DNA of 64,000 nt, taken from contig JAJYLH010000008.1 of assembly GCA_021787845.1 (NCBI GenBank), forward strand, positions 1 through 64,000, read 5' to 3'. A program made the translations under genes and the position numbers. This DNA comes from Myxococcales bacterium (GTDB lineage Bacteria; Myxococcota; Myxococcia; Myxococcales; JAJYLH01). Shown piece by piece: positions 2,142 to 10,342 of the stretch; the first letter of the stretch is position 1; each line of letters opens with the position of its first letter. A model generated the notes under the pieces. The model did not search any database. It was not told the DNA's origin and saw only the letters and a list, made by a program, of their open reading frames with translations.

Positions 2142-3056
2142 TCAAAAATACCCCTCGCGCTTCTTGAGCTCCATCGAGCCTTCCTCGTCGAAGTCGATGA
2201 CCCGGCCTTGCCGTTCGGACTGGCGGCTCTCGCGCATCTCGCGCAGGATCTCCGGCACCGTCCGCGCGGTCGATTCGATGGCCCCGGACAGCGGATAGCA
2301 TCCGAGCGTGCGAAAGCGAATCATCCGCAGGCGCGGGGTCTCTCCGGGCCGCAGCGGCAGTCGCTCGTCGTCCACCATGATGAGATTGCCATCGCGCTCG
2401 ACGACCGGCCTTTGCGCCGCGAAATAGAGCGGCACCACCGCAAGGCGCTCCAGCCAGACGTAGCGCCACACGTCGAGCTCGGTCCAGTTGGACAGCGGGA
2501 AGACCCGGATGGACTCGCCGGGGTCGATGCGGCCGTTGTACAGGTTCCACAGCTCCGGCCGCTGTCCCTTGGGGTCCCACTGGCCGGCGCGGTCGCGAAA
2601 CGAGTAGACGCGCTCCTTGGCCCGCGACTTCTCCTCATCACGCCGCGCGCCGCCGAAGGCCGCGTCGAACCCGTGCCGCGCGAGCGCCTGCAACAGCGCC
2701 TGGGTCTTCATGACGTGCGTGTACTTGCGGCTGCCGTGGTCGAACGGGTTGATGCCCTGCTCGAGCGCCTCCTCGTTGCGATGGACGAGGAGCTTCAAGC
2801 CGTGCTCGCGCACATACGAGTCGCGAAAGGCGTACATCTCTCGAAACTTCCAGGTGGTGTCGACATGGAGGAGCGGAAAGGGAATCGGCCCGGGATGAAA
2901 GGCTTTGCGCGCGAGGTGGACCATCGTCTGCGAGTCCTTGCCGATGCTGTAGAGCATCACCGGCTTGGCGAACTCCGCGGCGACCTCGCGGATGATGTGG
3001 ATGCTCTCCGCTTCCAGCTCGCGCAGGTGGTCGAGAGTGTCGGTCGAGGCGATCAT
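2142..3056 (-). CDS. cysD: Sulfate adenylyltransferase subunit 2 (CysD)
   Basis: PP-loop ATP pyrophosphatase subunit that adenylates sulfate to APS, driven by the GTPase CysN. The 304-residue length is normal for the family. The nucleotide-binding loop reads [18 protein letters not shown] near residue 40, followed by [21 protein letters not shown]. The segment [21 protein letters not shown] and the C-terminus [10 protein letters not shown] are CysD hallmarks. ATG 3056 overlaps the stop of the upstream SUMT gene by four bases (ATGA), indicating translational coupling. Confidence 0.97.
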
Positions 3057-3841
3057 CGCAGGGCTCCTCGGGTCAGCGCCGGTGGGACGGGTATCGGCAG
3101 ATCGCTTTCGTCTCGGACAACCTGGTTTCTCAGCGCGACCACCTCGCCGACGACGAGGAGCGCGGGTGAATCGATTTCGGCTTCCCGCGCGCGCAGCGCG
3201 ATGTCGCCCAAGGTGCCATGGGCGATGCGCTCATCGGCGAGGCTGGCGGAGGCGATGATCGCAGCGGGGGTCGAGGGCGACCGGCCGGCTCCGACGAGAG
3301 CCCGAATCGTCTTGTCGAGGCGACCAGCCGCCATGAACAGCACGAGCGTCTCGGCTCGCGCGAGGTGTTCCCAGTCCGGCTCGCCCTGCGCCCGACGGCC
3401 AGTGGCGAACGTGACCGACCCGGCGACCCCGCGCTGGGTGAGCGGAATTCCCGCCAAGGCCGGACCCGCGAGGCCGCTACTGACTCCGGGCACCACTTCG
3501 CAGGGCACGCCCGCCCGGGCGAGCGCCATCGCTTCCTCGCCGCCGCGGCCGAAGACGAACGGATCTCCGCCCTTGAGCCGGACCACGGTTCGTCCGAGCC
3601 GCGCCTGGGCGATGAGCAGTCCGTTGATCTGATCTTGCGGGACGCTGTCGCCCCCGGCCTCCTTACCCGCGTAGATGAGTCGCGCCCCGCGCCTCGCGCG
3701 AGCCAGCAGGTCCGGGTGTACCAGGCGGTCGTAGACCACGGCGTCGGCCCGGGCGAGGAGGTCGGCTCCCCGCAAGGTGATGAGATCCCAAGCGCCCGGG
3801 CCGGCGCCGACGAGGTAGACCGTGCCCACTCGCTTGTTCAT
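3053..3841 (-). CDS. cobA: Uroporphyrinogen-III C-methyltransferase (SUMT)
   Basis: Transfers two methyl groups from SAM to uroporphyrinogen III to give precorrin-2, the first step toward siroheme, the cofactor of the sulfite reductase in this operon. Family motifs in order: [18 protein letters not shown] at the N-terminus, [23 protein letters not shown] near residue 90, [20 protein letters not shown] near 120, and VTFATGR. It is 262 residues, normal for stand-alone SUMT. It overlaps the precorrin-2 dehydrogenase gene upstream and cysD downstream by four bases each, so the siroheme genes are tightly coupled to sulfate activation. Confidence 0.96.
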
Positions 3842-4521
3842 CGGGATTCTCCCGTTGCAGTGGCCGCGCGCACCGCGGCGAACGCGGCCTTGCGATTTCC
3901 ACTAGCCAGGTGCGACGCGGCGGGACTGTCGATGATCCGGGCGAGCGTCGCGGCTCGCGTATCGCGCGGCAACGCCCTTCGCAGCGCTCGCAGGATGCGC
4001 GCGAGCCGGCCCCACTCCGGGCCAATCGCGCTCATCGCTCGATCGCGCAGGGTGCGGGCCAAGCCTGGCACCGCCCCGGCGGTCGACACGGCGATGGTGA
4101 CCGGCCCCCGGCGGCCGATGGCGGGAACGTAGAAGTCGCAGAGCTCCGGCAGGTCACAGGCGTTCGCGAGGAGGCCTCGACTGCGCGCCTCGCGGACGAC
4201 TTCGGCGTTGACTCGAGGCGAATCGGTCGCGGCGAAGACCAGCGACATCCCCGCGCAATCTTCCGGCCGCCAGCGCCGCTCGTGGAGATCGATCGCGTTC
4301 GACTCCCCGAGGGCTCTCAGCTCCCCGCGCGCTCTCTCGGCCACGACCCGCACGCGCGCTCCCACTTCGACGAGCGGCGAGATGCGGCCGCTCGCGACCC
4401 GGCCCCCGCCGACCACGAGAACCGGCTGGCCGTGAAGACGCAGCGCGATGGGATAGTCGAGGGCGGCGCTGGGTCGGCCCTCACCCCCCGCTGCCGCGCG
4501 CTTCATCCGTGAAGCTTTCAT
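3838..4521 (-). CDS. Precorrin-2 dehydrogenase / sirohydrochlorin ferrochelatase (Met8/CysG-N type)
   Basis: NAD-dependent oxidation of precorrin-2 to sirohydrochlorin, and possibly iron insertion, completing siroheme. A Rossmann loop (PVLVVGGGRVASGRI) lies near residues 30-45. The segment ACDLPELCDFYVPAIGRRG carries the conserved aspartate region of Met8 and CysG-N, followed by ISTAG-like VTIAVSTAGAVPGLARTLRD. Start: ATG 4521 follows GGAGGAG at five bases. The earlier ATG 4536, which overlaps the cysH stop as TGATG, would add five residues and cannot be excluded. Length is about 227 residues. The separate SUMT gene follows directly, so this lineage splits the two CysG halves. Confidence 0.93.
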   Translation of the reverse strand: MKASRMKRAAAGGEGRPSAALDYPIALRLHGQPVLVVGGGRVASGRISPLVEVGARVRVVAERARGELRALGESNAIDLHERRWRPEDCAGMSLVFAATDSPRVNAEVVREARSRGLLANACDLPELCDFYVPAIGRRGPVTIAVSTAGAVPGLARTLRDRAMSAIGPEWGRLARILRALRRALPRDTRAATLARIIDSPAASHLASGNRKAAFAAVRAATATGESR

Positions 4522-4535
4522 CGACTCCTCCGCCA

Positions 4536-5273
4536 TCACTTGCGGTGCAACCCGCACTCTTTGTGCTCCGCAGACTCCCACCACCAGCGGCCGGCGCGCA
4601 CGTCTTCCCAGGGCTTGACCGCGCGGGTGCAGGGAGCGCAGCCGATGGAGCGCAATCCCTGGTCGTGCAGCGCGTTGTAGGGAAGCTGGCGCTCTTTCAC
4701 GCAAGCCCAAACGTCGGCCTCGGTCCAAGCCGCGAGCGGGTTCACCTTGGCGATGCCCCCGTGCGCGTCGTCGCGCTCGACCGCGTCCACTCCCGCGCGC
4801 GTCGGCGACTGCTCCCGCCGCAGTCCCGTCACCCAGGCCTCGCAGCTCGCGAGCGCGCGACCCAGCGGCTCCAGCTTGCGAATTGCGCAACACGCCTTGC
4901 GCGCCTCGATGCTCTCGCGAAACGAGAAGTAGCCGCGGCCGCGCTCCAGCTCTTCGACGCCGGCGCGCTCGGGGAAGAACGTTTCGATAGCGATGCCGTA
5001 GCGTCGCCGCACCTGCTCCATGACTTCGTAGGTCTCGGGGTGGAGCCGGCCCGTGTCGAGCGTGAAGACCCGCACGCTCGGCGCGTAGCGGGAACCGAGG
5101 TCGATCAACACCACGTCCTCGACCCCGAAGCTCGAGGCGATGGCCGCGTGGTCGCGAAAGGTCTCCTCGACCCATCGCAGGATGTCCGGAGCCGAGGCGT
5201 TCGTCAGACGCGCCGTGACGTCCGCGAAATCGAGAGGCGAGCGAGTCTCTTCGGCGGGCGTCATGGCTTGCAT
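4536..5273 (-). CDS. cysH: Phosphoadenylyl/adenylyl-sulfate reductase (APS-reductase type CysH)
   Basis: Reduces activated sulfate to sulfite using thioredoxin-type reductant. The family core is seen in SSFGVEDVVLIDL, VFTLDTGRLHPETYE and the C-terminal KECGLHRK. A pair CC (ARKACCAIRKLEP) and a later GCAPCTR supply the four cysteines of the [4Fe-4S] cluster, which mark APS rather than PAPS reductases. That fits the missing APS kinase P-loop in CysN. ATG 5273 has GGAG at five bases. A second in-frame ATG at 5264 overlaps the upstream stop as ATGA. Length is 245 residues. Confidence 0.96.
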   Translation of the reverse strand: MQAMTPAEETRSPLDFADVTARLTNASAPDILRWVEETFRDHAAIASSFGVEDVVLIDLGSRYAPSVRVFTLDTGRLHPETYEVMEQVRRRYGIAIETFFPERAGVEELERGRGYFSFRESIEARKACCAIRKLEPLGRALASCEAWVTGLRREQSPTRAGVDAVERDDAHGGIAKVNPLAAWTEADVWACVKERQLPYNALHDQGLRSIGCAPCTRAVKPWEDVRAGRWWWESAEHKECGLHRK

Positions 5274-5857
5274 GGGATCTCCGTTATCGGGCGTGCACCA
5301 CGCTTCAAGCGAACGCGGAAGGCGGCCCGGGCGTCGGCCTGGAAATCGAGCTCGACCCCCCCTGGCCACAATCGTTCGGCGACGGTCGTCAACGCGGGGC
5401 GCAGCTCGGTCAAGGTCTCCGCGGTACATGGCGCGAGCAGCCGGTCGTTCGCACCGACCTCGATCTCCGTCTCGACGAACCGCAGCTTGCCGCGCAGCTC
5501 CGGATCGTCCTGCAGGGCGCGGGCGGCGCGCACCGTCGCGCGGACGGCGCGGTCGAGCCGGGCCGCGAAGTCTCCCTCGTTCGGGCGCTTGCGCTGGTAG
5601 AGCAGGCCCGGGCGCTGGCCGCGCAGGGTGAGCGAATAGTTCGCGCCATGGCAGACCAGCACGATTCCCGGCCCGTCGGGCACGTGGGAGTAGTCGGCGA
5701 CGTCGATCATCACCTCGTCGAGCCCGCGGGCTTGGATCAGTCGATGGAACGCGGCGACCACCGAGCCCACCGCAATGGCGCCGCATGTCGGATCGGCGCT
5801 CAGCCGAACGGCGAGGCGCTGGGCGAAGAGAGCGTCGTTCTCAAGGGTGCTCGTCAT
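5261..5857 (-). CDS. Conserved protein of unknown function in the sulfur operon
   Basis: A 198-residue soluble protein I do not recognise. It starts with ATG 5857, overlapping the sulfite reductase stop (ATGA), and its stop overlaps the cysH start region, so it is co-translated with both. The sequence is predicted to be mixed alpha/beta with no signal peptide or membrane segment. Notable conserved-looking stretches are DPTCGAIAVGSVVAAFHRLI, IVLVCHGANYSLTLRGQRPG and ETEIEVGANDRLLAP. Only three cysteines and no metal-cluster pattern are visible. Its position between SiR and APS reductase suggests an accessory role in sulfite reduction or electron delivery, since no CysJ flavoprotein is encoded here. 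That is inference only. Confidence 0.85.
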   Translation of the reverse strand: MTSTLENDALFAQRLAVRLSADPTCGAIAVGSVVAAFHRLIQARGLDEVMIDVADYSHVPDGPGIVLVCHGANYSLTLRGQRPGLLYQRKRPNEGDFAARLDRAVRATVRAARALQDDPELRGKLRFVETEIEVGANDRLLAPCTAETLTELRPALTTVAERLWPGGVELDFQADARAAFRVRLKRGARPITEIPCKP

Positions 5858-8187
5858 TGCTCCCTCGCCTTCTGCGCGCTGATGCGGTGGTAGCAGGCGT
5901 GCGCCGCTTCGATGAACAGCATCGTCTCCTCGAGCCGCTCCTGGGCCTTTTCGCGAGCGAAGCTCTCGGAGCCCGCCCCGTTCGGGCGCAGCAGGTACTG
6001 GGCGAACTTGTCGCCGACGTGCGGGTCCTGGAAGACCCCCGTGTCGAGCAAGCGGGTGCGAAACTCGCGAACGATCTCCTCTGGGACTTCGGAGACCTCC
6101 GAGCTGTCGGCGCGCAGCAACGCCTGAGCGGCGAGGAGCATGGCCTCGTGGGCCCGTCCGGCGGCCAGACCCAGCTCGCCCCGTTCGAACAGCGTCTGCG
6201 CCTCGTAGGCCGCCACCTCCGCCGCCGCCAGGCCGAACTTGGTCGCCGTCACGAGCTCGCCCGCGCACTCGCCTTCCCCCATGTCCGTGATGGTGTACTC
6301 GCGCGGGTCGCCCCAATCGGAGTAGTAGGACGGTTCTTGTTCATAGGAAGGAACCCGGAGCAGGTCCTCGAGCCGGTGGCGCACCGCGTTCTTCCCCGCG
6401 CGTTGAACGAACGCGGCGAACGATTCGCCCTCGTGACGCTCCTTGGCGAACAGGTCTGTCAGCCGCTCGATGGCGGCGGGGACGTTCTTCGAAGGCACCG
6501 CGGCCGTCGCGAGGCCGAACGAGGCGACGTTGTCCTTGGCGTCGCCGCCGAGCACGATCTGGAAGTGCGGAACCCGCCGGCCCTCGACGCTGCGACTGAC
6601 TCCCAAGAGCCCGATGTCCGCGACGTGGTGCTGGCCGCAGGCGTTGAAGCAACCCGAGACCTTGACGCGCAAGGGGCGGACCGCGTCGGGCAGGGGCTTG
6701 GCCTCGAGCCTCTCGCCGATGGCCAGCGCGACGCCGCGCGAGGAGGAGATTCCGAGCTTGCAGGTCTGGGTGCCGGGGCAGGAGGTGACATCGACGATGG
6801 TGGACGCGGCGGGCGCGGCGAGGCCCGCGCGCGAAAGGCGGCGGTGGAGCTCGGGCAGATCGGCCTCGGGGACCCAGCGCAAGACGATGTTCTGTTCGGC
6901 CGTCGTCCGCACCGTGTCGCCGGTGAGGTCGCGAGCGATTTCGGCGAGCGCGCGCAGCGGGCCGGCCGCGATATCCCCGAGCGGCAACCGGACCGTCGCC
7001 GTCACGTACCCCGGCTGCCGTTGCCGAACCACGTTCGAGGCGCGCCAGGCATCGAAACCCTCGGCCGCAGGCTCGCGCGCCGCCGGGTCGCCGGCCGCTC
7101 CCTGACGGTCGCGGTACGGATCAGACCGATCGGTCGGATCCGACTGATCGGTCTGATCAGACGTCGGCCATGTCCGCTCATCCTGAGGGAAGGCCGACCG
7201 CGGGTCATCGTCGAGCGCCTGGAGGTTCTCGAGGTAGTCCGTCCACCGGCGGTCGTCGCGCAGCACCTTGCGCTCCTCGCGAACCAGCCGCGCGAGCTCC
7301 CCGATGCCCAGACTGGAGACCAGGAACTTCAGACGGGCACGCTGCCGGTTCTTCTTCTCTCCCAGCCGCGCGAACACCCGGCCGATCGCTTGGACCAGGG
7401 GCAGCATCTCCGCCTCGGGCACGAACTCGTCCAGGAGCTTCGCCTGCTGCGGCACCGCTCCCAGCCCGCCGCCGAGGTGGACCTCGAATCCCCGCTGGCC
7501 GTCGCGCTCGGTGGCGATGGCGCCCAGGTCGTGGATGCGCGCGAGGGCGCACGAGCCGTGCCGGCATCCGGAGAAGGCTATTTTGAACTTGCGCCCGAAG
7601 TCTTGCGCGTCCGGGTGGCCGAGCATGAAGTAGGCGCAGGCGTGGGCGTAGGGCGTCACGTCGAAGACCTCGTCCTGGCAAACGCCGGAGAGCGGGCACG
7701 CGGTGACGTTGCGCACCACGTTGCCGCACGCCTCGCGCGTCGTGACGCCCACCGCGGCCAGCCGGCGCATGAGGTCGGGCGTGTCGTCGATGTGGACGTA
7801 GTGGAGCTGGAGGTCCTGGCGCGTCGTGACGTGGGCGATGCCGTCCGAGTACTCCTCGGCCACGTCGGCGATGACGTCCATTTGCTCCGCCGTGAGGCGA
7901 CCCAGCGGAATCTTGATCCGCTGCATCCCCGGCGCGTCCCAGACGGTGTTGGCGCCCTTGGTCGGACGCTCGGGAAAGCCGAGGCGCTGGGTGCGTTGCC
8001 CGTCGTGCCGGAGCCCGTTGTCGTAGCGCTGCCCGTAGACACCCCGGCGCAGGCGCGACTCGCTAAAGAGCCGCTCCTCGAGCTTCCCCTGCCAGCGCAG
8101 CTCGATCTGCGCCTCGAACACGTCGATCTCGCGGCCGAGCGGCTCATCGATCTGGTCGTTCAGGCGTTCCTTCCAGGTGGCAGCCAT
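5854..8187 (-). CDS. cysI: Assimilatory sulfite (nitrite/sulfite) reductase hemoprotein with HEPN-like C-terminal domain
   Basis: Six-electron reduction of sulfite to sulfide on a coupled siroheme/[4Fe-4S] centre. The two ferredoxin-like/SiR repeats are visible. The N-terminal half has VWDAPGMQRIKIPLGRL, VTTRQDLQLHYVH and NVVRNVTACPLSGVC. The second half carries the cluster ligands VTSCPGTQTCKLGI and GCFNACGQHHVADIGLLG (C-x5-C and C-x3-C). About 170 extra C-terminal residues (from VPSYEQEPSYYSDWGD to the end) are helical with RAHEAMLLAAQALL and EAAHACYHRI, like the HEPN-type tails of some bacterial SiRs. A linker of TD/SD repeats about 335 residues in is encoded by a GATC palindrome insertion. 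No flavoprotein partner gene is present, so ferredoxin is the likely donor. Seven bases separate it from the cysteine synthase. Confidence 0.93.
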   Translation of the reverse strand: MAATWKERLNDQIDEPLGREIDVFEAQIELRWQGKLEERLFSESRLRRGVYGQRYDNGLRHDGQRTQRLGFPERPTKGANTVWDAPGMQRIKIPLGRLTAEQMDVIADVAEEYSDGIAHVTTRQDLQLHYVHIDDTPDLMRRLAAVGVTTREACGNVVRNVTACPLSGVCQDEVFDVTPYAHACAYFMLGHPDAQDFGRKFKIAFSGCRHGSCALARIHDLGAIATERDGQRGFEVHLGGGLGAVPQQAKLLDEFVPEAEMLPLVQAIGRVFARLGEKKNRQRARLKFLVSSLGIGELARLVREERKVLRDDRRWTDYLENLQALDDDPRSAFPQDERTWPTSDQTDQSDPTDRSDPYRDRQGAAGDPAAREPAAEGFDAWRASNVVRQRQPGYVTATVRLPLGDIAAGPLRALAEIARDLTGDTVRTTAEQNIVLRWVPEADLPELHRRLSRAGLAAPAASTIVDVTSCPGTQTCKLGISSSRGVALAIGERLEAKPLPDAVRPLRVKVSGCFNACGQHHVADIGLLGVSRSVEGRRVPHFQIVLGGDAKDNVASFGLATAAVPSKNVPAAIERLTDLFAKERHEGESFAAFVQRAGKNAVRHRLEDLLRVPSYEQEPSYYSDWGDPREYTITDMGEGECAGELVTATKFGLAAAEVAAYEAQTLFERGELGLAAGRAHEAMLLAAQALLRADSSEVSEVPEEIVREFRTRLLDTGVFQDPHVGDKFAQYLLRPNGAGSESFAREKAQERLEETMLFIEAAHACYHRISAQKAREQ
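7118..7164. repeat. GATC-centred palindromic repeat inside cysI
   Basis: A run of GATC units with flanking GGTC/GACC steps, including the 12-base palindrome core ACCGATCGGT, lies in frame in the sulfite reductase gene. It encodes a hydrophilic SDQTDQSDPTDRSDP linker between the two SiR halves. Other members of the family are at 15738, 17129, 17871, 19464, 23361, 27915 and 57491. Confidence 0.85.
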
Positions 8188-8194
8188 GTTCCCT

Positions 8195-9538
8195 CTACGC
8201 GGCCTCTGTCGCCATTCCCTCAGCGGTCCAGGCGGCCATGCCGCCCAGCAGGTTCTTGACGCGCGAGTACCCGAGCGCCTTGAGCAGCAGCATTGCGTAG
8301 AGCGACTTCTCGCCCACGCGGCACACGGTGACGAGGAGCCGGCCGCGCTCTCTCGGGAGCGCCGGCGCCGCGCCGTCGGCGAGCTCCTCGAGCGCGATGT
8401 TGACCGCTCCCGCGAGGTGCCCCTCGGCGAACTCCGAAGGCGGTCGCACGTCGATGATCAGCGGCTGCTCATCGGACAAGAGCTCTTCGAGCTCGCCTAC
8501 GTCGATGACGTCCGGCGAGCCGCGCGCCAGCCGCGCCGCCGCGCCGAGGAGCGCGCCCGCCTCGTCGGTTGCGGGAGCCGCCTTGGTCGCCCCGAACAGC
8601 TCGGGCAGGTGCCGGCGCACCGAGCTCGCGTACTTGAAAGCGTTGTCGGGGAAGATGACGACACAGACCGTTCCCGGCTCGTCGGGGACCCGCTCCAGGG
8701 CTCCCGCCAGCGCCAGGCCCGAGCTGGGGCCGGCGATGATGCTCTCCTCCTGGTTCAGGCGCCGGCACATCCGGAACGCCTTCTCGTCGCTGACCTCGAC
8801 GAGCCCGTCGTACTCGGCGGGCAGAAAGAACTCGGTCTGCTTGAGCTGACGCAGGCTGCGCACGCCCGGAATGTCGTGGCCGTCGCGCGGATGGACGCCC
8901 AGCACCTTCACCCGCGGGTCCTGCTCCTTGAGGTAGCGGCCGGTGCCGGTGATGGTGCCGCAGGTCCCGAGCGCGGCGACGAAGTGCGTCACCCGGCCGC
9001 CGGTCTGCTTCCAGATTTCCGGTCCGGTCGACCGGTAGTGCGCGTCGGGGTTGGCCGGGTTCTGGTACTGGTTGAGCTGATGGTAGCCCGGCTTCCCCGC
9101 GATGGCGGCGGCGAGGGCGATGGCCCCCTCGGGAGCGCCGGGCGCGGGGCACAGCTCGTCGGCAAGCTCGATCACCTCCGAGCCGAACAGGCGCAACACC
9201 GCGCGCTTCTCTTCGGGGATGGCCGCCGACAAGGTCGTGGTGAGCCGGTAGCCCCGGGCGTTGGCGATCATCGCCAGGGCCATGCCGGTGTTGCCCGAGG
9301 TGGGCTCGACGAGCGAGCGCTTCGAGGCGAGCAGGCCTTGGTCCTCGGCGTCGCGCACGAGGTTGGCCGCCACCCGGTCCTTGACCGCACCGAAGGGGTT
9401 GTACCATTCGAGCTTGCCGTAGAGCGCCGCGTGCCGATGGGGGACGACGCGGTGCAAGCGGACGAGGGGAGTCGGGTTGTCGACGCCCGAGAGCAGCTCG
9501 AGAATCGACTCGTAGACGCGCCGGTGGTGGTCGGCCAT
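8195..9538 (-). CDS. Cysteine synthase fused to a rhodanese domain
   Basis: PLP enzyme making cysteine from O-acetylserine (or phosphoserine) and sulfide, the end point of this operon. Residues 1 to about 320 are the fold-type II synthase: NPFGAVKDR with the PLP lysine K53, the substrate loop EPTSGNTGMALAMIA, the phosphate-binding GTCGTITGTG and the C-terminal GPSSGLALAGAL. From about residue 345 a rhodanese domain follows (LIIDVRPPSEFAEGHLAGAVNI) with the active loop CRVGEKS. This suggests the sulfur carrier may be an enzyme persulfide. ATG 9538 is preceded by GGAGGAG at seven bases. A longer frame to 9664 is rejected because it crosses the terminator hairpin and is Arg-rich. Length is 447 residues. 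It could equally be called CysK or CysM. Confidence 0.93.
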   Translation of the reverse strand: MADHHRRVYESILELLSGVDNPTPLVRLHRVVPHRHAALYGKLEWYNPFGAVKDRVAANLVRDAEDQGLLASKRSLVEPTSGNTGMALAMIANARGYRLTTTLSAAIPEEKRAVLRLFGSEVIELADELCPAPGAPEGAIALAAAIAGKPGYHQLNQYQNPANPDAHYRSTGPEIWKQTGGRVTHFVAALGTCGTITGTGRYLKEQDPRVKVLGVHPRDGHDIPGVRSLRQLKQTEFFLPAEYDGLVEVSDEKAFRMCRRLNQEESIIAGPSSGLALAGALERVPDEPGTVCVVIFPDNAFKYASSVRRHLPELFGATKAAPATDEAGALLGAAARLARGSPDVIDVGELEELLSDEQPLIIDVRPPSEFAEGHLAGAVNIALEELADGAAPALPRERGRLLVTVCRVGEKSLYAMLLLKALGYSRVKNLLGGMAAWTAEGMATEAA

Positions 9539-9540
9539 GG

Positions 9541-9624
9541 TCAGCTCCTCCCGCCGCCGCCCAGGCGCCGGCCAGGCCCGCCGAAGCTCTCTTCCACCCG
9601 CCTTGCCGCCGGTCCGTTCGCCAT
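9541..9624 (-). CDS. 27-residue ORF between attenuator and cysteine synthase
   Basis: ATG 9624 has a strong GGAGG site four bases upstream. The frame of 27 codons (MANGPAARRVEESFGGP..., Gly/Arg-rich end LGGGGRS) stops two bases before the cysteine synthase ATG, and its last codons contain the next gene's ribosome site. No homology is apparent. It may be a coupling ORF that brings ribosomes past the terminator, or it may be translated by chance. Confidence 0.45.
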   Translation of the reverse strand: MANGPAARRVEESFGGPGRRLGGGGRS

Positions 9625-9643
9625 GGGGCCTCCTTCGCGGCCG

Positions 9644-9684
9644 AAAACGAAAAAAGCCCGCCACCTGGGTCGCAGGTGGCGGGC
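9644..9684 (-). terminator. Rho-independent terminator/attenuator before the sulfur operon
   Basis: Perfect 12-base-pair stem: GCCCGCCACCTG pairs with CAGGTGGCGGGC (9673-9684 with 9656-9667) across a five-base loop. On the minus strand it is followed by TTTTTTCGTTTT. It lies between the Cys-rich leader ORF and the first operon enzyme, so it can only act as an attenuator for the operon. Its 5' arm can instead pair with 9744-9751 inside the leader ORF. Confidence 0.92.
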
Positions 9685-9717
9685 CAGCAAGTGCCCTCGA
9701 GGATTCTCCGCGTCAGC

Positions 9718-9822
9718 TCATGCGGAGCTCTCGGGCGCTCGGTCCGCCACCGAGGGACACGCGCAGGCACAGCAGCAGGCCGCGGAGTCGATCGTCAGGC
9801 GGGTCGAGGCGAGAGCGTACAT
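9718..9822 (-). CDS. Cysteine-rich leader peptide of the sulfur operon
   Basis: A 34-residue ORF begins at ATG 9822 behind a GGAG site and contains the cluster AACCCACACPSV: five cysteine codons within seven positions (9757-9777). It ends 33 bases before the terminator hairpin. Directly after the last Cys codon, the mRNA reads GGTGGCGG (9751 to 9744), the exact complement of CCGCCACC in the terminator's 5' arm. A ribosome stalled at the Cys codons would leave this free to form an antiterminator. A freely moving one would cover it and let the terminator form. This is the layout of amino-acid attenuators such as trp and his, here for cysteine. The peptide itself probably has no other role. Confidence 0.85.
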   Translation of the reverse strand: MYALASTRLTIDSAACCCACACPSVADRAPESSA

Positions 9823-9832
9823 CCTGTCTCCG

Positions 9833-9861
9833 TGTCTAACACGGCCCCGCACGCTTGTCAA
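9833..9861 (-). promoter_or_regulatory. Candidate sigma-70-type promoter of the sulfur operon
   Basis: Minus strand: TTGACA (9856-9861), a 17-base spacer and TAGACA (9833-9838). The spacing and -35 are ideal. The predicted start would lie within a few bases of the leader ATG at 9822, giving a very short 5' end and leaving the GGAG site unused. Either the leader is nearly leaderless or the true promoter is farther upstream. Confidence 0.5.
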
Positions 9862-10342
9862 GCGGCGGCGCGAACGAGCGAGAGCGGCCGGCCGAGCCGA
9901 CCCCCTGGCGCGACTAGCTAGGAGCCCGTCAGCGAAGAGAAGGTGGACGTGACGCCCAAGAGGTCGCCTGCGAACGCAGGCTGTGCTGGCCTCGCGGCCG
10001 AGCTCGCCGGCCTGGGTGAACGGCATCGTTCTTGAGGCGCAGAGCATACAGATCGCGTCCGGAAGCCTCAAATTTGGCGCTCGGATCCTTCGAGGACGCC
10101 CGCGCCACAGGAGAAGAGGCTCTGGCGCAGAGCCGGAGAAGAACCCAGGGGAGAAGAACCCGCGCTGGGCCTGAACGAAGGCGACACGCCCGTTGGGCGC
10201 CGAGAACATCCCTCCACAGGCCGTTGACCCGCGAAGCTCTCGGTGGTCAACTGCGTCGGCTGGGCGAGCGTTCGCGGCTTCCCGGTCTCATCCACGGGTC
10301 GTGTCGGAGTGATGTCGGTTCGTCGCAGAGGAACGCAAGAAC
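9862..10342. other. Gene-free intergenic region
   Basis: About 480 bases between the divergent sulfur operon and the methyltransferase gene. I see no convincing ORF, tRNA or terminator. Short GAGAAGAACCC direct repeats occur around 10128-10160. Binding sites for a regulator could lie here but none can be named. Confidence 0.5.

Follow-up and report, generated by a model that had tools for sequence, protein, structure and literature searches.

The stretch of DNA analysed here, referred to below as the window, comprises 64,000 nucleotides of contig JAJYLH010000008.1 of a Myxococcales bacterium. It contains a sulfate-assimilation operon of eight genes in the order cysK-cysI-X-cysH-cysG-cobA-cysD-cysN, which, like all other features of the window described below, lies on the minus strand. 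The first enzyme gene is a cysK fused to a rhodanese domain (8195-9538, with the ATG at 9538; Pfam PALP, 7e-66, and Rhodanese, 5e-18). It is followed by genes for a cysI-type sulfite/nitrite reductase (5854-8187; NIR_SIR, 2e-54), protein X of about 199 codons without a Pfam match (5261-5857), the PAPS/APS reductase CysH (4536-5273, start approximate; PAPS_reduct, 2e-46), a siroheme synthase of the N-terminal CysG/MET8 type (3838-4536, start approximate; NAD_binding_7, 1e-29), a CobA-type uroporphyrinogen methyltransferase (3053-3841; TP_methylase, 3e-50), sulfate adenylyltransferase subunit 2, CysD (2142-3056; PAPS_reduct, 3e-53), with homologues 74-80% identical within the order, and the sulfate adenylyltransferase GTPase subunit, CysN (386-2029; GTP_EFTU, 9e-41). 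The operon contains no cysS. The Pfam matches support the earlier reading of a cys operon behind a terminator, with sulfate-assimilation genes from the cysK ATG onwards. Direct reading also revealed a 27-codon ORF (MANGPAARRVEESFGGPGRRLGGGGRS; 9541-9624), preceded by AAGGAGG and ending 2 nt before the cysK ATG, which is perhaps translationally coupled to cysK. Its start, MANGPAARRVEESFGG, loosely resembles that of the first gene at the locus of a related genome, G001 (MTARPEANDSRSRESFGDAAE), and the ORF may therefore be what is left of a gene that once stood first.

Upstream of these genes lies a leader ORF of 34 codons (MYALASTRLTIDSAACCCACACPSVADRAPESSA; 9718-9822), with an ATG at 9822-9820 and a TGA stop at 9720-9718, which was read directly from the sequence and has counterparts in relatives. 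Its codons 16, 17, 18, 20 and 22 encode cysteine, giving a putative regulatory run of five Cys codons in seven (TGC TGC TGT GCC TGC GCG TGT; 9777-9757). Both the ORF and the run were found exactly where the first-pass annotation had placed them. No other ORF of at most 60 amino acids within the window has at least four Cys in seven residues, and the leader is the single place in the window's own genome where a Cys run is combined with downstream complementarity (described below). A second long Cys run in this genome (G000:C81) was discarded, as it lies antisense to a polyglutamine stretch. A search of NCBIfam small-ORF families with the leader peptide gave no match. The leader frame is open further upstream, to position 10209, yielding an ORF of 163 amino acids. 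The extension was judged non-coding, because its GC content is flat over the three codon positions (0.67/0.64/0.71 vs. 0.72/0.48/0.93 in cysK); as it also has no Pfam match, the longer frame was rejected as a gene.

Between the leader and the operon, direct reading, a terminator scan and folding identified an intrinsic terminator (GGCCCGCCACCTG-CGACC-CAGGTGGCGGGCT followed by T6; 9650-9685). The hairpin occupies positions 9685-9655 and the T tract 9655-9650; the perfect 12-bp stem proposed earlier is confirmed, with one G-T pair in addition to the 12 Watson-Crick pairs. The distal part of the leader ORF contains GGTGGCGG (strand 2; 9751-9744), the exact complement of CCGCCACC in the 5' arm of the terminator (strand 3; 9682-9675), so that strand 3 is common to the antiterminator and the terminator. 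An 8-bp match between the leader and the terminator arm is infrequent in dinucleotide shuffles of the leader (p ~0.0055). The complementarity thus stands as first described, while the position assigned to strand 2, directly after the last Cys codon, needs correction, as it starts 5 nt further on. Strand 2 could additionally be held in a candidate protector hairpin, CTCGGT-GGCGG-ACCGAG (9738-9754), read from the sequence; a similar hairpin, CGTCC-GGCG-GGACG, is found at the matching position in G001. An Rfam search of 9300-10300 detected no T-box or other element at the gathering score, the best sub-threshold hit being anti-hemB (21.6 of 49.5 bits).

Ahead of the leader, a promoter-like element was read directly (9833-9861), consisting of TTGACA (9861-9856), a 17-nt spacer and TAGACA (9838-9833); it was not listed by a strict sigma-70 scan of the window. 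Its -10 box ends 10 nt ahead of the leader start codon. The same arrangement, i.e., TTGAC, a spacer of 17-18 nt and a -10 box beginning with TA, precedes the start in 37 scored leaders, and in 36 of these the start codon lies 6-11 nt past the -10 box. As the distance from a -10 box to the start site is usually 6-7 nt, no more than about 5 nt would separate the 5' end from the leader ORF, and the leader mRNAs, judged by these predicted start sites, are probably near-leaderless.

The cys loci of relatives were collected from genomes of the same order via cysI, cysD and cysH homologues, and short ORFs with at least four Cys in seven residues were sought upstream of them. Eighteen such ORFs were found in 103 kb upstream of cys genes vs. 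about 0.6 expected from their frequency elsewhere (0.0061 per kb). Within the order, four families (f1, represented by the window's own genome only, f2, f4, and f8) have Cys leaders ahead of cys genes, as does one genome of another class. They mostly stand before first genes other than cysK, and the region upstream of cysK in about 65 GTDB relatives showed no clear counterpart of the window leader. For example, in G001 (f2) the leader MRTVSATSFDHTAACCCCACCCCRPAGRAPGDFA is located ahead of cysI, and in G038 and G041 (f8) a leader of the form M...RCCCCACAIPWRSGELLE.. is located ahead of cysH. In G182, the genome of another class, the leader MNMQRALEPQFKITAQAACCGDTCCCCCCG is followed by a small gene and then by cysH-cysD-cysN-cysK-cobA-cysI. 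On the reverse strand of this locus (L249, near 6148), the leader end CCGDTCCCCCCG precedes a CGAAGGCCGGC hairpin that lacks a T tract. The distribution is patchy, as no Cys leader was found in family f6 and in several f4 genera.

Terminator-like hairpins follow the leaders of f2, the cysH-type leaders of f8 and the second of two f4 leaders (see below), and the sequences of f1, f2, f8, and f4 all permit an antiterminator/terminator pair. The helices differ in sequence between families and cannot be aligned. The conservation in relatives on which the earlier proposal had been made to depend was therefore observed for both of its elements, the Cys-run leaders in four families and another class and the alternative pairing in f1, f2, f8, and f4. 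The f8 genomes possess a second leader type, ...CACCCRPGMSCRARARA (CACCCRPG), located ahead of a siroheme gene (L117, L118, L119, L121, L122, and L128). No clear terminator was found after these leaders, which are followed by C-rich RNA and perhaps exert Rho-dependent or translational control. The Cys leader of G083 also has no clear terminator. Finally, a Cys-rich leader, ...ASCKCACCRRPVEYRVCGRA, was noticed in G032 (L115:1529, plus strand) ahead of a gene for a TauE/SafE-like permease, identified by eye; its position suggests that control by Cys leaders may extend to sulfur transport.

Family f4, which is probably Myxococcaceae, comprises many genomes of 9-13 Mb. In 30 of them (L135, L136, L138, L140, L142, L143, and L187-L224), two Cys leaders stand in tandem ahead of cysH, ending about 400 and about 150 nt upstream of the cysH match (e.g., ...TPTAALFRCRCCRSCACCALSGLGC and ...ACCLACACPVCPPPGGCRAARSG). 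Cys is retained at most core positions of the f4 leaders, with TGC and TGT interchanging. In six related genomes (L135, L136, L138, L140, L142, and L143), whose counts are not independent, the rare Cys codon TGT accounts for 46 of 67 Cys codons in the leaders, whereas the cys genes at these loci use it for 8 of 67. The second leader of G132 (L200) has 12 Cys codons in a row, most of them TGC; the regulatory run may have expanded here as a microsatellite. Among the second leaders whose sequences were inspected, no evident Shine-Dalgarno site or separate promoter was seen.

The alignment of the 30 f4 second leaders revealed several near-invariant segments, GCGG and CGAGC within the leader codons, GGCCCGCC in the 5' arm of the terminator, and GCGGGCC in the 3' arm, separated by spacers that vary. 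With the 3' arm of the terminator (strand 4) omitted, RNAalifold predicted the 2:3 antiterminator; with strand 4 included, it predicted a 1:2 protector hairpin and the 3:4 terminator. Two-sided changes were few in the alignment of the first leaders and absent from that of the second leaders, because strands 2, 3, and 4 of the latter hardly vary.

The capacity of each leader to sequester the terminator arm was compared with that of dinucleotide shuffles. Sequestration was stronger than in the shuffles for the window (z -3.5, p 0.004), f8 (p 0.008), and f4 leader 1 (p 0.006), but no stronger for f2 (p 0.34) or f4 leader 2 (p 0.59); Fisher's method, applied to these five elements (each family once, with the two f4 leader types kept separate), gave p 1.8e-4. 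Matching of the terminator arm to individual leaders had proved too weak a test in several relatives, and ribosome positions were therefore modelled by folding the transcript as far as the loop of the terminator, with a ribosome on each Cys codon or on the stop codon. In the window, the modelled probability of 2:3 pairing was 1.00 with the ribosome at codons 16-20 but fell to 0.06 at codon 22, as strand 2 would be covered by a ribosome stalled on the last Cys codons, and to 0.00 at the stop. Stalling on early and middle Cys codons gave modelled values of 0.85-1.0 in the window, f8, f2, and f4 leaders, except that in the f2 leader and f4 leader 2 the first Cys codon, or the first two, gave 0.19-0.55. 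With the ribosome at the stop codon, the model yielded 0.00-0.13, except for 0.72 in leader 2 of G132. In the window, f2, f8, and f4 leader 2, strand 2 lies at a similar distance (21-24 nt) from the stop codon. The proposal of the first-pass annotation, an antiterminator and a terminator that exclude each other, is thus supported by the shared strand, by the sequestration of the terminator arm, and by the modelled shift with ribosome position. In the window RNA modelled without a ribosome, 2:3 pairing is also favoured (0.78), and repression would therefore require efficient translation of the leader. The minimum-energy fold of the full transcript includes the terminator; the mechanism would therefore rest on the order of events during transcription, which is what decides the outcome in attenuators of this type.

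These data are best explained by a classical ribosome-mediated transcription attenuator that senses charged Cys-tRNA, an interpretation we consider very probable. We infer that the promoter is used, that the leader is translated, that ribosomes stall in the Cys run, and that cysteine is the signal. RNA polymerase would start just ahead of the leader ORF, with a ribosome trailing it. When cysteine is plentiful, the ribosome would pass the five Cys codons and reach the stop codon, and strand 2 would be kept off strand 3; the 9685-9655 hairpin with its U6 tract would then form, and transcription would end before cysK. When charged Cys-tRNA is short, an early stall in the Cys run would free GGTGGCGG to pair with CCGCCACC; this 2:3 pairing would block the terminator and allow transcription of the whole operon, from cysK to cysN.

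Alternatively, the Cys run could act by a translational mechanism of the mycobacterial type or by Rho-dependent polycysteine attenuation, with stalling either altering ribosome access to the cysK start or shielding the RNA from Rho, and the hairpin being incidental. Near-leaderless poly-Cys ORFs ahead of cys genes are indeed the mycobacterial arrangement, described as acting on translation, and the CACCCRPG-type leaders of f8 and the leader of G083 have no clear terminator. However, in the window a 12-bp GC-rich stem with T6 is placed between the leader and the operon, the leader binds the 5' arm of this terminator more strongly than shuffled sequences do, and terminator-like hairpins recur after the f2, f8 cysH-type and f4 second leaders. 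As an account of the window, this alternative appears unlikely.

Two further explanations are both very improbable. The hairpin might terminate an unrelated short transcript or an upstream gene, the Cys run being an accident of the ORF that extends to 10209. The frame is open over 163 codons, as such an explanation would need, but the extension has flat codon-position GC and no Pfam match, and relatives have Cys runs at the equivalent position. Nor does the ORF seem to encode a functional Cys-rich peptide, for example a metal- or thiol-binding one, co-expressed with the sulfur genes. Several relatives do share residues after the Cys run; however, beyond the run, peptides from different families have neither sequence nor length in common, the codons shared in f4 coincide with the antiterminator strands, and no NCBIfam match was obtained. 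The transcription attenuator described above is thus retained as the preferred interpretation.

The kind of mechanism is already known from the trp/his scheme. As in the trp, his, and ilv attenuators, the window has a run of codons for the pathway product in a leader ORF, mutually exclusive antiterminator and terminator forms, and an intrinsic terminator before the first gene. Unlike those systems, the window and its relatives have Cys codons, a sulfate-assimilation operon, and a leader start almost at the predicted transcript start, and many relatives have two attenuators in series. Cys-codon leaders are known in Actinobacteria (PMC1262725, PMC4633059). The mycobacterial polycysteine leaders, the subject of Canestrari 2020 as cited in PMC9094748 and PMC13236596, have no conserved terminator hairpins (PMC1262725), and the Cys leaders of M. 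smegmatis are described as acting on translation (PMC13236596). These actinobacterial short ORFs resemble the window leader in their Cys runs, their leaderless or nearly leaderless form, and their position before cys operons; the window differs from them in its intrinsic terminator with alternative pairing. The first-pass annotation was right to refer to mycobacteria but did not mention a second case, the ribosome-mediated attenuator with Cys codons and an intrinsic terminator predicted for cysS of Rhodobacterales (uORFC-8-2 motif; PMC8632094). This motif shares with the window the Cys codons in a short upstream ORF, the terminator, and the predicted mode of action, whereas it has two tandem Cys codons, controls cysteinyl-tRNA synthetase rather than a sulfate-assimilation operon, and belongs to another phylum. 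No description of a Cys attenuator in Myxococcota was found in the open-licence literature, in agreement with the earlier claim of novelty, and the same literature yielded no report of this lineage, of the tandem arrangement, or of the near-leaderless form.

Our analysis raises the possibility, on which we remain evenly divided, that near-leaderless Cys-codon attenuators form an undescribed type that serves as the standard regulator of sulfate assimilation in a large part of the order and extends to another class of the phylum, with two attenuators in series in many genomes and TGT preferred in the runs. Cysteine is a rarely sensed amino acid in attenuators that end transcription, and its best-studied case, in mycobacteria, is described as translational. 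Cys attenuators with intrinsic terminators, often doubled, would offer a natural comparison of single and serial attenuators. The preference for TGT in the regulatory runs could sharpen the response. With a near-zero 5' untranslated region, how ribosomes load fast enough to control termination could be asked directly in these bacteria.
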